Positions 11,583 to 15,588 of a DNA stretch of 33,246 nt are shown piece by piece. Origin of the DNA: Candidatus Bathyarchaeia archaeon (GTDB lineage Archaea > Thermoproteota > Bathyarchaeia > Bathyarchaeales > DTEX01); contig JAVZNR010000014.1 of NCBI GenBank assembly GCA_038882715.1, positions 1-33,246 on the forward strand, in the 5' to 3' direction. The stretch's first letter is position 1. Every line of letters starts with the position of its first letter. The notes beneath the pieces were generated by a model that made no database searches, had not been told where the DNA came from, and was given only the letters and a program-made list of their open reading frames with translations. A program made the translations under genes and the position numbers.

Positions 11583-12098
11583 TTAAGCCGGAGTACCTCC
11601 GGGCGTTCTGGATGGCGCCGGTTCCATTCCTAGTGTTGGCCTCTTATCGATCATAAGCCCAAAATACGGTGCCCTCCTCATCCAGTAATTATATAAGCGA
11701 GTGGAGTAGGTTGTGCTCCTATCGATGAGTTTTGCTTGCCAATTGAAAGCGGTTCTCCAGCGCTTCCCGGTTATAAGAATTTTAATGAAGTTGATGAAAT
11801 TCAGAATTCCGGCAGCTATACTGTAGAGAAGAATAATGAGACTGAATGCCAAGCCGTAAACAAAGCCTACTAGACCGGCTAGAAAGCTCCATATTATCCT
11901 CACTATTAATTCTAGGCGCGAAGCCTTTTCATCAAAGAATATGGTTGCCGTCTGAATCTGATAAGATATGGGGACTTCCACCATCACGGGCGGTGGCGGT
12001 GGGGGCGGTGGCGGCACAGCGGTTAAACTTGCCCCGCAATACGAGCAGAAAGCTGCTTCTGGAGGAACTTCCCTACCACAACTTGGACAGATCGACAT
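11583..12098 (-). CDS. Zinc-ribbon membrane protein with DUF4389-like region
   Basis: 171 residues from the ATG at 12098. The start is fixed by GGAGAGGT eight bases upstream and by the N-terminal zinc ribbon that begins at once: MSICPSC...CSYCG, ligands C4, C7, C18 and C21. Then comes a run of nine prolines, then two membrane segments (about residues 65-100), and an Arg-rich cytoplasmic part (FNWQAKLIDRSTTYSTRLYNYW) like DUF4389. An in-frame ATG at 12188 is possible but has no ribosome binding site. It follows the KITE-like gene by about 90 bases on the same strand, so it may be the last gene of the SMC operon. The molecular role is unknown. Confidence 0.72.
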   Translation of the reverse strand: MSICPSCGREVPPEAAFCSYCGASLTAVPPPPPPPPPVMVEVPISYQIQTATIFFDEKASRLELIVRIIWSFLAGLVGFVYGLAFSLIILLYSIAAGILNFINFIKILITGKRWRTAFNWQAKLIDRSTTYSTRLYNYWMRRAPYFGLMIDKRPTLGMEPAPSRTPGGTPA

Positions 12099-12188
12099 TA
12101 AGATTACCTCTCCTATATGTCTGAGCTTCCACGTATAAAGAATTTTCGCCGCCAAACAGCGGTAATTAAAACGGCTTAAAATGGGCAT

Positions 12189-12773
12189 CTACATTTTTGC
12201 TTCTGATTCGAGCAGTAAATCTATTAGTTTCTTCTGATCGACTTCGGCCCTCGTCCTCCACCCCAAATAGATCTGTCCATTCTCGTCCTCAACCATATAT
12301 CCAAGCCTAATAAACTTGCTGAGGTCTATTTCAACCCGCCAATCTGGAATCTTAGCCTTCAACAAATCCTCTAACTCCTTCCTAGGCACTTTCCCGCCCC
12401 TAGATATTATGTACGCTATTGAGGCGCACAGCGCCGCTAAGTCATCTATACGCCATCCAACCAGTTTAGCCTCCTCAACCGTTAAGTCGTCTCTTAAGGT
12501 CACATAGAACCTCGCCTTATCGTAGTGCTCGATTGTTGGGTTTTCAGGCGGGTTCGCTTCCTCAAAGACGATTTTAACTGTGAGCCCCATCTTCGCCAAG
12601 TACTCGTCTAAAAGGTTTACGACTTTGGGGTAATCGGATCCTATTCGCCTCCTCAGCTCCCAACCCTTAGCTCCCGGCGTAGAGTGTCTCCTATAAAGTA
12701 GGAGCTGCGCAGCTTTCCTCATCTTTGAGGCATAGTACGCTTTTCTATCTATGCTCCTCTTTCCTCTCTCCAT
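12189..12773 (-). CDS. Tandem winged-helix (KITE) protein resembling Nse3/MAGE
   Basis: About 194 residues, no recognised enzymatic motif. The layout is two winged-helix-like units (about 18-100 and 107-185). The pattern resembles the MAGE/Nse3 homology domain: an early helix AAQLLLYRRHSTPGAKG, then YPKVVNLLDEYLAKMGL, then FYVTL, then ALCASIAYIISRGGKVPRK, and finally IYLGWRTRAEVD, close to the MAGE ending in which Leu-Trp-Gly-Pro-Arg-Ala precedes an acidic residue. KITE proteins bind the kleisin of SMC complexes; this gene starts inside the kleisin candidate. The ATG at 12773 is chosen; a GTG at 12782 is an alternative, and neither has a clean ribosome binding site. The assignment is from remembered family patterns and needs profile confirmation. 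Confidence 0.6.
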   Translation of the reverse strand: MERGKRSIDRKAYYASKMRKAAQLLLYRRHSTPGAKGWELRRRIGSDYPKVVNLLDEYLAKMGLTVKIVFEEANPPENPTIEHYDKARFYVTLRDDLTVEEAKLVGWRIDDLAALCASIAYIISRGGKVPRKELEDLLKAKIPDWRVEIDLSKFIRLGYMVEDENGQIYLGWRTRAEVDQKKLIDLLLESEAKM

Positions 12774-13576
12774 CTCTCCCACTCTTCAAAGCTTATGGAT
12801 ATTGGGAAAGATATTAACTCGCCTTCACCCTCGTTTAAGGGTTTCTCGTTAGGCAGTATAAATATATCGTTTTCTAGGAAATGTACCTGCAGCCTCGCGT
12901 AGCCGTAGGTTATGAGGAAGCTTGCCAGATAAGCCCTCCTCACGGTCTCCTCATAGGTGTCTGAACCTATGAAATCCCAATACTTAACCCTTCCATTCTT
13001 CGAGGCTAGATCCTTTAACTCAAGCCACATTTTTTCGAGCTCAGCCATGAAGGGTTCGCCTGATAATACGCCTTCCTTAACCATCTCCTCCCTAGTCGCA
13101 AAACCCATATCGGTTTTAGTATAACCGATCTTTTGCCACCTCAAGTTTAGGGGTGGAAGATCGCTCCAATATTTTAAGGCTTCCCGGAAGCCCCTAAGCG
13201 TTAATTGTTCAAGCTCAATTATTGGCCGCCAGACCCTGAGGAAGATTTCAGCCATCCTGTCTATCGGGAGACCGCGGATTTTCTCCTCTATCAGGAAAGG
13301 GTCTCTATAAAGCGCTGTGGCTCTCCGCTTAACCCATTCGCCTTGCATCCTAACAACTGAAGCTATGCTGTTTAACGCTTCGGTGTCTAAGCATAGATCT
13401 TCGGTATCATTCCATAAGGGAAAATAATCTCTTATAGTTTTAATCAAATCATCTACGTCAACGAGATACGGGTCTAAACCCTTAATCTCAACAGTCCTAC
13501 ATGTATCAACTATCCTACGTAGATCTTCCCTAGCCTCCTTAAGCTCCTTTCTTTTTACACTGGCCATAGAGCTCAC
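12749..13576 (-). CDS. Nse4-like kleisin candidate of the SMC operon
   Basis: 275 residues. The C-terminal segment DTYEETVRRAYLASFLITYG (about 206-225), followed by ARLQ and a hydrophobic FILP ending, matches the Nse4 C-terminal winged helix, where a Ser-Phe/Tyr-x-x-Thr-Val pattern precedes Ser-Phe-Leu and a Gly. The N-terminal helix (KRKELKEAREDLRRIVD) could bind the SMC neck, as kleisins do. The middle is mostly helical. The start is a GTG at 13576 with GGGAGGT six bases upstream. It overlaps the SMC stop as GTGA, a strong coupling signal. A kleisin would bridge the two SMC heads and carry the KITE protein. Alternative: an unrelated SMC-neighbour protein; I think this less likely given the gene order. 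Confidence 0.6.
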   Translation of the reverse strand: MSSMASVKRKELKEAREDLRRIVDTCRTVEIKGLDPYLVDVDDLIKTIRDYFPLWNDTEDLCLDTEALNSIASVVRMQGEWVKRRATALYRDPFLIEEKIRGLPIDRMAEIFLRVWRPIIELEQLTLRGFREALKYWSDLPPLNLRWQKIGYTKTDMGFATREEMVKEGVLSGEPFMAELEKMWLELKDLASKNGRVKYWDFIGSDTYEETVRRAYLASFLITYGYARLQVHFLENDIFILPNEKPLNEGEGELISFPISISFEEWERWREERGA

Positions 13577-15588
13577 GAAATAACCTCCCTGATAAGAGAT
13601 TTACCATCAATATTCTGAACCGTGATTATGTGGGCTTCTTTCCCCTCAAAAAACATCTGGTTTGGGGTTATCGCGAGGTACTGTGCGCCCTCATTTTTAA
13701 CAGCCGATATGAGCAGGTTGGCTATTATCTCACGGTTTCTAGGATCCATGTGAACATCGTACTCGTCTATGGCTCTGAACGGGGACTTTATATGCTTTTG
13801 AAGGGCTAATAGAAAAGCCATGGTTGCGGTGCTCCTCTCCCCGCCGCTCTGAGAATATATGTTTAATGGTATTGGCTGAGAACCCTTAAACCCTACGTAA
13901 ATCTCTAAGCCAGCGGCTTCAATATCTTCCTCATTCACTAGGCGCACGAAACCTGAGCCAGCAACCTGAGAGAGAATATTCTGATACTCCGTGTTAACGC
14001 TCTCCAAAATATTTTTAATCACGCTTCTCCACGCCTCCATGCGAACCCTGATCTCCTCCAAGGTTTTCTCACGGTTTTCAGCGGCTATGCGGGCCTTCTC
14101 CTTAAGCTCAAAGTACAGTTTAGAGTAGGACTCATACATTTTTTCAACTTCCTCGGATACCTCTGCCATAGCTAGCAGGCGCCCATCCGTGATGCGGATC
14201 TCATCTAGAATCTCGTTGGGGCTCCTTAAAACAGCTATGCGTGGCCCCTTCTCCTCAGCCTTCTTAATGGCTTCATTGAGACTTAACATTAAATTATCTA
14301 GGCTACTGTTTAAGGCTTGAAGTTCGCTCTGCAATTCGCTTCTTTTGTAGTTTAAGACGGCTGAGCTGACCTTATTGTCGATGAGAGCGTTAACAGAATC
14401 CTCAACCTTCTTCTCAACCCTATATAACTCATCCTTTACATCTAGAAGGCTAACCTCTATGTTGGCGAGCTTTATGCTGGCCAGCTCGCTGAGGTCTCTT
14501 AATTCGCCAATCTTAGACTTAAGCGCGCTAAACCAGCTCTTTAAACCCTCAAAGATTTTCGCTTCGCTGAGTTCTCCCATATTCGTCGCTTCTCTTTTAA
14601 GAGCCGTAGCAGAGAGACCCATGAAGCTTCTCTCCCACTCCCCGAAAAACTCCTCTAGGCTGCTCAGCATGTCTCTGCTCCTAAGAAGGTCAATGTCGTA
14701 TCGGGCTTTCTCCCTCTCGAGGGAGATTCTCTCCTCAAGAAGGCTCCGCCACTTTTCCTTTAAGTTGGCAATGTTCTCTTCAAGCAATTTGATGGAGTTT
14801 TCATGCTCGCTAATAGCATCCTCGATCTTCTTCAGCTCAGCCCTCTTATCCTCAATCTCAACCCGCATTTTATTTACTTCTTCCTCTCTTTTAGCGACCT
14901 CAGCCCAAGCCAGCTCCCGCTCCAAGAAGCGCCTTTTAAGCATGAGCTGCTTTTTCTCTTGATAGCGGTCATACTGCTCACGCCAGTAAGCGAGGGTCTG
15001 CTCAACAGATTCAATCATCTTGTTAAGCGACTCCTCTTGACTAGTTATCCTGCTAAGCTTATTCTGCGCCTCCAGAACGTTTTTCCGATAGGATTCAAGC
15101 CCAACGGCTGACTCCACAAGCCTAAGCTTCTCTTGAGGAGATAGAAGGATGAATTGCTCAGCCATATCTTGATGCATTATTATAAGCATGTTGTCTGGAT
15201 CAACGTTAAAGTGGGAGAGAAGCCTTAAAACTTCGGCTTTACTAGCCGCGACACCGTCAATTTCAAACCAATACTTTCCATCACGCCTTAAAACCCTACT
15301 TAAATAGATTTGATCCTTATTGATTTTTGGAACTGGGCGTTTGCCCTTAACCCTGGAGTTATTTAGGACTAGGGTGACGCGCCCAATATCCTTACCCCAC
15401 CTTATCAGGTCGCTAAGCCTCTTGGAGCGCTCAGTGTAGGATTGACCGAGGGCAACAGATATACCTAAGAGAATCGAGGATTTACCTGCGCCGTTAGGGC
15501 CGCAAATTATGTTGACGCCGGGCTTAAGGGGTACTCTAGCATACTCGTAGGACATGAAGTTCTCCAAGATTATTTCAGATATCAGCAT
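13573..15588 (-). CDS. Compact SMC5/6-like ATPase
   Basis: 671 residues, against roughly 1,000-1,200 for standard SMC proteins. N-terminal head: NFMSYEYARV, Walker A GPNGAGKS (30-37), IMHQDMAEQF (138-146) and LSPQEKLRLVESAVG. Then coiled coil from about 165 to 310, a short non-coil stretch (about 311-365), and a second coil to about 530. C-terminal head: signature SQSGGERSTATM (579-590) and Walker B as SPFRAIDEYDVHMDPRNRE with D608 and E609. The PFRxxDExDVxMDxxNR pattern, the ELAWAEV segment (225-231) and QSGGERS followed by a Thr-Met resemble Smc5/Smc6 more than Smc1-4 or prokaryotic SMC. No Rad50 zinc hook (no Cys pair) and no standard hinge. The ATG has GAGGG seven bases upstream. First gene of a coupled operon. 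Confidence 0.8.
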   Translation of the reverse strand: MLISEIILENFMSYEYARVPLKPGVNIICGPNGAGKSSILLGISVALGQSYTERSKRLSDLIRWGKDIGRVTLVLNNSRVKGKRPVPKINKDQIYLSRVLRRDGKYWFEIDGVAASKAEVLRLLSHFNVDPDNMLIIMHQDMAEQFILLSPQEKLRLVESAVGLESYRKNVLEAQNKLSRITSQEESLNKMIESVEQTLAYWREQYDRYQEKKQLMLKRRFLERELAWAEVAKREEEVNKMRVEIEDKRAELKKIEDAISEHENSIKLLEENIANLKEKWRSLLEERISLEREKARYDIDLLRSRDMLSSLEEFFGEWERSFMGLSATALKREATNMGELSEAKIFEGLKSWFSALKSKIGELRDLSELASIKLANIEVSLLDVKDELYRVEKKVEDSVNALIDNKVSSAVLNYKRSELQSELQALNSSLDNLMLSLNEAIKKAEEKGPRIAVLRSPNEILDEIRITDGRLLAMAEVSEEVEKMYESYSKLYFELKEKARIAAENREKTLEEIRVRMEAWRSVIKNILESVNTEYQNILSQVAGSGFVRLVNEEDIEAAGLEIYVGFKGSQPIPLNIYSQSGGERSTATMAFLLALQKHIKSPFRAIDEYDVHMDPRNREIIANLLISAVKNEGAQYLAITPNQMFFEGKEAHIITVQNIDGKSLIREVIS

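Follow-up and report, generated by a model that had tools for sequence, protein, structure and literature searches.

The core of the eukaryotic SMC5/6 complex consists of SMC5, SMC6, the Nse4 kleisin and the KITE pair Nse1 and Nse3. This complex has been regarded as eukaryotic, with no prokaryotic counterpart described for its kleisin and KITE subunits, though related SMC ATPases are known in archaea: according to Yoshinaga and Inagaki 2021, as cited in PMC9389158, there are archaeal "SMC5/6-related" SMCs that trees place together with SMC5 and SMC6. As for the other described systems, bacterial SMC-ScpAB is made of an SMC, a kleisin and a KITE dimer, archaeal SMC-ScpA of an SMC and a kleisin, which are reported to work generally without a KITE (PMC7055376), and in Wadjet JetABC(D) and MukBEF/MksBEF the SMC, the kleisin and the KITE are encoded together. 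Archaea also carry the coalescins or archaea-specific SMC-related proteins (ASRPs), most of which have a zinc hook (PMC9389158). Here we analyze a stretch of 33,246 nucleotides from a Candidatus Bathyarchaeia archaeon (assembly GCA_038882715.1, contig JAVZNR010000014.1, positions 1-33,246), called the window below, in which three coupled genes at 12189-15588 encode a compact SMC ATPase, a second protein, p2, of the Nse4-like kleisin type and a third protein, p3, of the Nse1/Nse3 (MAGE) KITE type. We call these three genes the trio.

Our reading of the trio, to which we assign a probability of roughly 0.86, is that this operon encodes a second, non-canonical SMC-kleisin-KITE complex belonging to the SMC5/6 clade, which stands beside the canonical SMC. 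A preliminary description of the locus had already proposed an archaeal counterpart of SMC5/6 with a single SMC, an Nse4-type kleisin and a single Nse3/MAGE-type KITE, and this proposal is now supported by profiles, trees, predicted folds and gene order. Among the observations that it had named as speaking for giving it up were a lack of profile matches for the two smaller proteins and a three-gene order not conserved in related genomes; the analysis found the matches present and the order conserved.

Affinities and build of the three proteins

The SMC carries the ATPase motifs Walker A GPNGAGKSS, signature SGGERS, Walker B FRAIDE and D-loop MDP, which are split over the two ends of a coiled coil, and the residues of GPNG.GKS, SGGER and DE are invariant in 33 orthologs. 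When the 671 amino acid sequence was searched singly, its best match in PDB was yeast SMC5 (1e-34), and with a profile of the 33 orthologs the first ten PDB places were all taken by SMC6 and SMC5 chains (194-240 bits), before other SMCs. Since coiled coils can inflate scores of this sort, head-only profiles were built, one from the trio SMC and one from the canonical SMC of the same taxonomic order. The trio head profile gave 143-145 bits with yeast SMC5, 119 with human SMC5, 117-120 with yeast SMC6 and 102 with human SMC6, and lower values with SMC2 (79-81), SMC3 (57-80), SMC1 (45-80) and SMC4 (50-56). The canonical head profile behaved in the reverse way, with 139-211 bits for SMC1-4 and 53-60 for SMC5, and SMC6 was absent among the matches listed. 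Maximum-likelihood head trees place the trio heads together with those of SMC5 and SMC6 and separate from canonical SMC (support 97/84), and adding ten Asgard rows of the type B described below gave the same grouping (support 96/97). Judged from these sequence comparisons, the placement in the SMC5/6 clade holds at the level of the clade only, the protein being neither SMC5 nor SMC6 itself. The SGGER signature was considered as a marker of SMC5/6 and rejected, since GERS is found in the canonical SMCs of these archaea too; several canonical Bathyarchaeial SMCs (L163 at G000:C5:56395-59925, L156, L166 and L167) have SSGERS instead of the SGGE signature.

For the two smaller proteins, single-sequence searches of PDB returned nothing useful and family profiles were needed. 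The Pfam family Nse4_C matches p2 in all members of the order (19/19, best 3.1e-5) and in 36 of 44 members of a wider set (best 3.5e-7), where it is the only recurrent family. A six-frame search with Nse4_C found matches in 16 of 41 genomes, always in the p2 gene and nowhere else, one genome passing the Pfam cut-off (26.2 versus 26), and no match in the control genomes (0/14). With a p2 profile, the highest-ranked PDB chains were those of the yeast and human Nse4 family (E 0.007-0.075). AlphaFold2 models p2 with helices at the N-terminus and a winged helix at the C-terminus, joined by a middle of low confidence; the top two Foldseek matches are yeast Nse4 of Smc5/6, followed by the winged helices of ScpA and Scc1 (target TM score 0.72-0.78). 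For p3, AlphaFold2 predicts tandem winged helices (pLDDT 87.7), and all seven Foldseek matches in PDB at E<=0.001 are MAGE-G1, Nse1, Nse3 or Smc5/6 entries, the best TM score being about 0.6 and those of ScpB and MukE lower. The sequence signal of p3 taken alone is weaker than the fold signal and points in the same direction, as the two commonest Pfam families in 43 members are MAGE (10/43, best 2.8e-4) and SMC_Nse1 (4/43, best 6.5e-4).

These results bear out the protein types given in the preliminary description. Reciprocal head profiles and the head phylogeny, which it had suggested as a check, agree with a compact SMC of the SMC5/6 kind, the Nse4_C family matches together with the Nse4 profile and fold matches agree with an Nse4-like C-terminal winged helix in p2, and Foldseek with the MAGE and Nse1 Pfam matches agrees with a MAGE/Nse3-like tandem winged helix in p3, for which the PDB profile is weak. 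A further suggestion, that the complex is perhaps close to the ancestral form, is in doubt. No Pfam match to SMC_hinge (PF06470) was found in the window SMC. Among the 33 orthologs, which measure 555-699 amino acids, the tip at residues 301-360 has an identity of 10-19% and an occupancy of 34-55%, the segment between W228 and Y485 is 146 to 272 amino acids long, and in the shortest orthologs the tip is too short for a hinge; none of the 33 has a CxxC motif or zinc hook. A hinge is present in one Asgard relative and in eukaryotic SMC5/6, and its absence from the trio SMC makes an unmodified ancestral form doubtful for this lineage.

Inheritance, gene order and the locus

Of 61 relatives, 48 have an ortholog of p2, and in a phylum-wide sample of 300 genomes p3 was found in 125. 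The order SMC-p2-p3 is kept in nearly all loci fetched and spans distant families as well as records of Bathyarchaeota, Hadesarchaea, Thermofilales/Thermofilaceae, Methanodesulfokora and Thaumarchaeota, and a diverged form of it occurs in Asgard archaea, so that the order is conserved in a survey across TACK and Asgard genomes. Given this frequency of orthologs and the retained order, the arrangement is not one of chance. The trio genes are single-copy in most genomes and common to most of an archaeal order, within which each of the three proteins has a mean column identity of 61%. Among the genomes G000-G040, the trio SMC is absent from six of the seven that lack p2, and the presence of the trio is all-or-none, the apparent exceptions being contig ends (in G028 the SMC is cut by one, in G020 p2 lies near one). 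G028 was for this reason rejected as a case of an SMC without partners, and the gapped SMCs of L037 and L048 were rejected as biology, being assembly N-runs. One genome of the order, G048, has two kleisin-KITE loci (G048:C1:446884-447684 and G048:C1:955428-956246), a duplicated complex, and at the first of them the SMC is interrupted by an assembly gap. The canonical SMC is also present in nearly all trio-bearing relatives, in G000 as a separate gene of 1185 amino acids (C5:56395-59925); G012 (85-86% complete) and G035 (69%) show only the trio SMC.

Asgard genomes were surveyed in the phylum of a Lokiarchaeota record, where p3-like genes are found in SMC-kleisin-KITE operons of two kinds. Type A has an SMC of 832-1161 amino acids, then a kleisin and a KITE, and the Pfam hinge is present in both of the two SMCs tested (in L143, PF06470 at 2.8e-13); an AAA+ ATPase gene precedes the operon (L143 2919-4310; also L142 and L144). 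Type B has an SMC of about 960-1000 amino acids, a kleisin, a KITE and in addition a protein of 147-180 amino acids with invariant Cys13, Cys33, Cys36, Cys44, Cys53 and His62 (four-gene operon at L145 3959-8761; also L146 and L205-L213). This small zinc-binding protein, which has a conserved C-terminal REExWxxFGxVLVKR block and gives only weak half-RING-like matches, is a possible counterpart of the Nse1 RING. Profile comparisons related the trio KITE to both Asgard KITE families with 96-97% probability over most of its length and p2 to the type A kleisin with 97%, while a control comparison of unrelated families gave 1.2%. No match was obtained between p2 and the type B kleisin, and the latter is therefore labelled by position only.

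The coordinates of the locus are collected in Table 1. The coupling of three minus-strand genes by GTGA and by an overlap of 25-34 bases, as initially noticed, is confirmed by the open reading frame coordinates and the sequence; the smaller value applies if the first internal ATG is taken as the start of p3. An overlap of 34 bases is also found in many relatives, for example L032, L035-L038, L041, L043, L046-L048 and L050.

Table 1. Features of the trio locus in the window, with the basis of each assignment
Feature	Position	Strand	Basis
SMC ATPase, 671 amino acids, ATG start, SMC5/6-like head, without hinge domain	13573..15588	minus	sequence and profiles
SMC coiled-coil arms and unconserved tip (approximate)	13960..14926	minus	ortholog alignment
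p2, Nse4-like kleisin, 275 amino acids, GTG start	12749..13576	minus	sequence, Pfam, AlphaFold2 and Foldseek
p2 layout: helical domain at the N-terminus, flexible middle, winged helix at the C-terminus	12749..13576	minus	AlphaFold2 model
p3, KITE subunit, 197 amino acids, GTG start, tandem winged helix, Nse1/Nse3 (MAGE) type	12189..12782	minus	AlphaFold2, Foldseek, Pfam
GTGA, 4 bases, overlap of SMC stop and kleisin start	13573..13576	minus	sequence
Overlap of kleisin end and KITE start, 34 bases	12749..12782	minus	sequence; same length in many orthologs

Flanking genes recur as well. The trio is flanked in many distant families (L084, L085, L089, L108, L111, L113, L114, L118 and L121) by a helicase of the Lhr type, in convergent orientation, and by a divergently oriented conserved protein of about 225 amino acids for which no significant Pfam match was found, and this neighborhood may suggest work linked to DNA repair or replication. 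Directly 3' of the KITE stop in the window, a minus-strand open reading frame (11583-12188) encodes an N-terminal zinc ribbon, a proline run and a membrane segment; it has a weak match to DUF4389 and is not a recurrent neighbor of the trio.

Rival readings and a possible mechanism

The resemblance to Nse4 and Nse3 might come from shared folds only, in which case the locus would encode a generic SMC-kleisin-KITE machine such as SMC-ScpAB, MukBEF or a Wadjet-like system. Winged helices of ScpA and Scc1, ScpB and MukE are indeed also among the fold matches, with weaker E-values, the trio head profile gives 103-116 bits with constructs of canonical archaeal Smc, and the best match of one Asgard KITE is MksE. 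However, independent sequence libraries place Nse4_C for p2, and MAGE and Nse1 for p3, ahead of any ScpA, ScpB or MukE family, and the reciprocal head scores and the trees favor SMC5/6, which leaves such a machine improbable in our view. A lower probability still is given to a system of defence against plasmids or phages that is of the Wadjet, Lamassu or MADS type and built on an SMC-like ATPase. PADLOC matches the SMC head to the defence ATPase models mad3 (1.5e-29), LmuB and JetC, and Wadjet likewise has a kleisin, a KITE and an SMC, but what these models recognize is ATPase heads in general, and of the two partners p2 has no match and p3 a negligible one (0.028). Nor is a JetD-like nuclease among the recurrent neighbors of the trio, which are the helicase and the unknown protein noted above, and the single-copy state of the genes in most genomes and their spread over most of an order also speak against defence. 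The short arms, the missing hinge, the length of 671 amino acids and the Rad50 models among the NCBIfam matches would fit a Rad50/RecN-like repair ATPase whose operon partners are unrelated small DNA-binding winged-helix proteins. We consider this highly improbable, since no Mre11 adjoins the trio, p2 has a kleisin layout with Nse4 as its best fold match, and the head resembles SMC5/6 much more than Rad50; the lack of a zinc hook led us to reject a Rad50 or a coalescin identity.

The assignment to the SMC5/6 clade has to be weighed against a number of contrary points. The trio has no hinge, one SMC, one KITE and no RING. The head trees contain long branches and no SMC1-4 rows, a clade of SMC5 and SMC6 is not rejected (p 0.21), and a grouping of trio with canonical SMC is disfavored weakly (p-AU, of the approximately unbiased test, 0.075). 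Taken alone, the window p2 stays below the Pfam threshold (Nse4_C 12.5 versus 26 bits) and the window p3 has no MAGE match in Pfam, significance coming for both from their families; the p3 profile reaches a MAGE-domain PDB chain at fourth place with a non-significant E of 0.59. A six-frame genome search with MAGE was rejected as evidence because it was near chance level and mostly matched other genes. Finally, the genes are apart in a few genomes (L045, L109, L117 and L122), where kleisin and KITE occur without an adjoining SMC, or the genes are split or divergently oriented.

Provided that the trio does form a complex of the SMC5/6 clade, its homology with SMC5/6 and SMC-ScpAB complexes of solved structure suggests how it might work. 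Both the SMC ATPase and the KITE would probably be homodimers. ATP would bring two SMC heads together, the C-terminal winged helix of the kleisin would bind one head and its N-terminal helices the neck of the other SMC, with the KITE dimer seated on the middle of the kleisin. DNA might then be clamped on the engaged heads, and ATP hydrolysis would release or move it. Because the arms are short and the hinge is missing, the assembly is probably a clamp centred on the heads, which kleisin and KITE close, and not a long ring closed by a hinge, and a hinge-free route of dimerisation is possible. Such a clamp may serve in DNA repair or in maintenance linked to replication, next to the canonical SMC of the genome.

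Regarding evolution, we put forward tentatively, at somewhat less than even odds, that SMC5/6 descends from a complete SMC-kleisin-KITE complex in the archaeal ancestor of TACK and Asgard, that Asgard archaea kept a hinged SMC or a fourth, zinc-binding subunit prefiguring the Nse1 RING, and that the TACK lineage lost the hinge and arrived at a minimal hinge-free clamp. On our main reading, the core of the SMC5/6 genome-maintenance complex appears to predate eukaryotes and is open to study in a simpler form, and archaea have a further SMC complex in addition to the canonical one. With all three subunits at hand, the origin of SMC5/6 can be tested directly, and biochemistry and structural work gain a minimal system, whose lack of a hinge would help to tell on which parts of an SMC ring the clamping of DNA or the extrusion of loops depends.

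Comparison with known SMC complexes

The trio is like the eukaryotic SMC5/6 core in its head affinity, its Nse4-type kleisin and its Nse1/MAGE-type KITE. However, its operon has one SMC gene instead of a heterodimer pair, the only other SMC in G000 found by an SMC-model search being the canonical one, and one KITE gene per locus, which resembles both Nse3/MAGE and Nse1. It further differs by its short arms, by having neither RING nor hinge, and by having no gene for Nse2 (the SUMO ligase), Nse5 or Nse6 in the operon. As a heterodimer of SMCs, a pair of KITEs, a hinge and a RING were looked for and not found, we do not file the trio as eukaryotic SMC5/6. Its SMC most likely belongs to the "SMC5/6-related" SMCs of archaea that had been described before (Yoshinaga and Inagaki 2021, cited in PMC9389158). 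The kleisin and KITE partners are likely new: in the literature searched, of which the coverage is incomplete, no description was found of these partners, of the operon or of the hinge loss in the archaeal SMC5/6-related SMCs.

With archaeal SMC-ScpA the trio has an SMC and a kleisin in common; the canonical SMC of these genomes is encoded by a separate gene and lies closer to SMC1-4. The trio SMC is of a different subfamily from that of Wadjet and MukBEF/MksBEF, and its small KITE and kleisin partners are related to the Nse proteins; with respect to Wadjet, the trio is a three-gene operon among whose recurrent neighbors no JetD (Toprim nuclease) was found. The ASRPs are archaeal SMC-superfamily ATPases of similar length, and the ASRP model matches the trio SMC at 2e-20, whereas the trio SMC has no CxxC and is accompanied by a kleisin and a KITE. 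With SMC-kleisin-KITE complexes in general, including bacterial SMC-ScpAB, the trio does not share hinge-mediated dimerisation, but it does share the ATPase motifs, the kleisin layout and the tandem winged-helix KITE.

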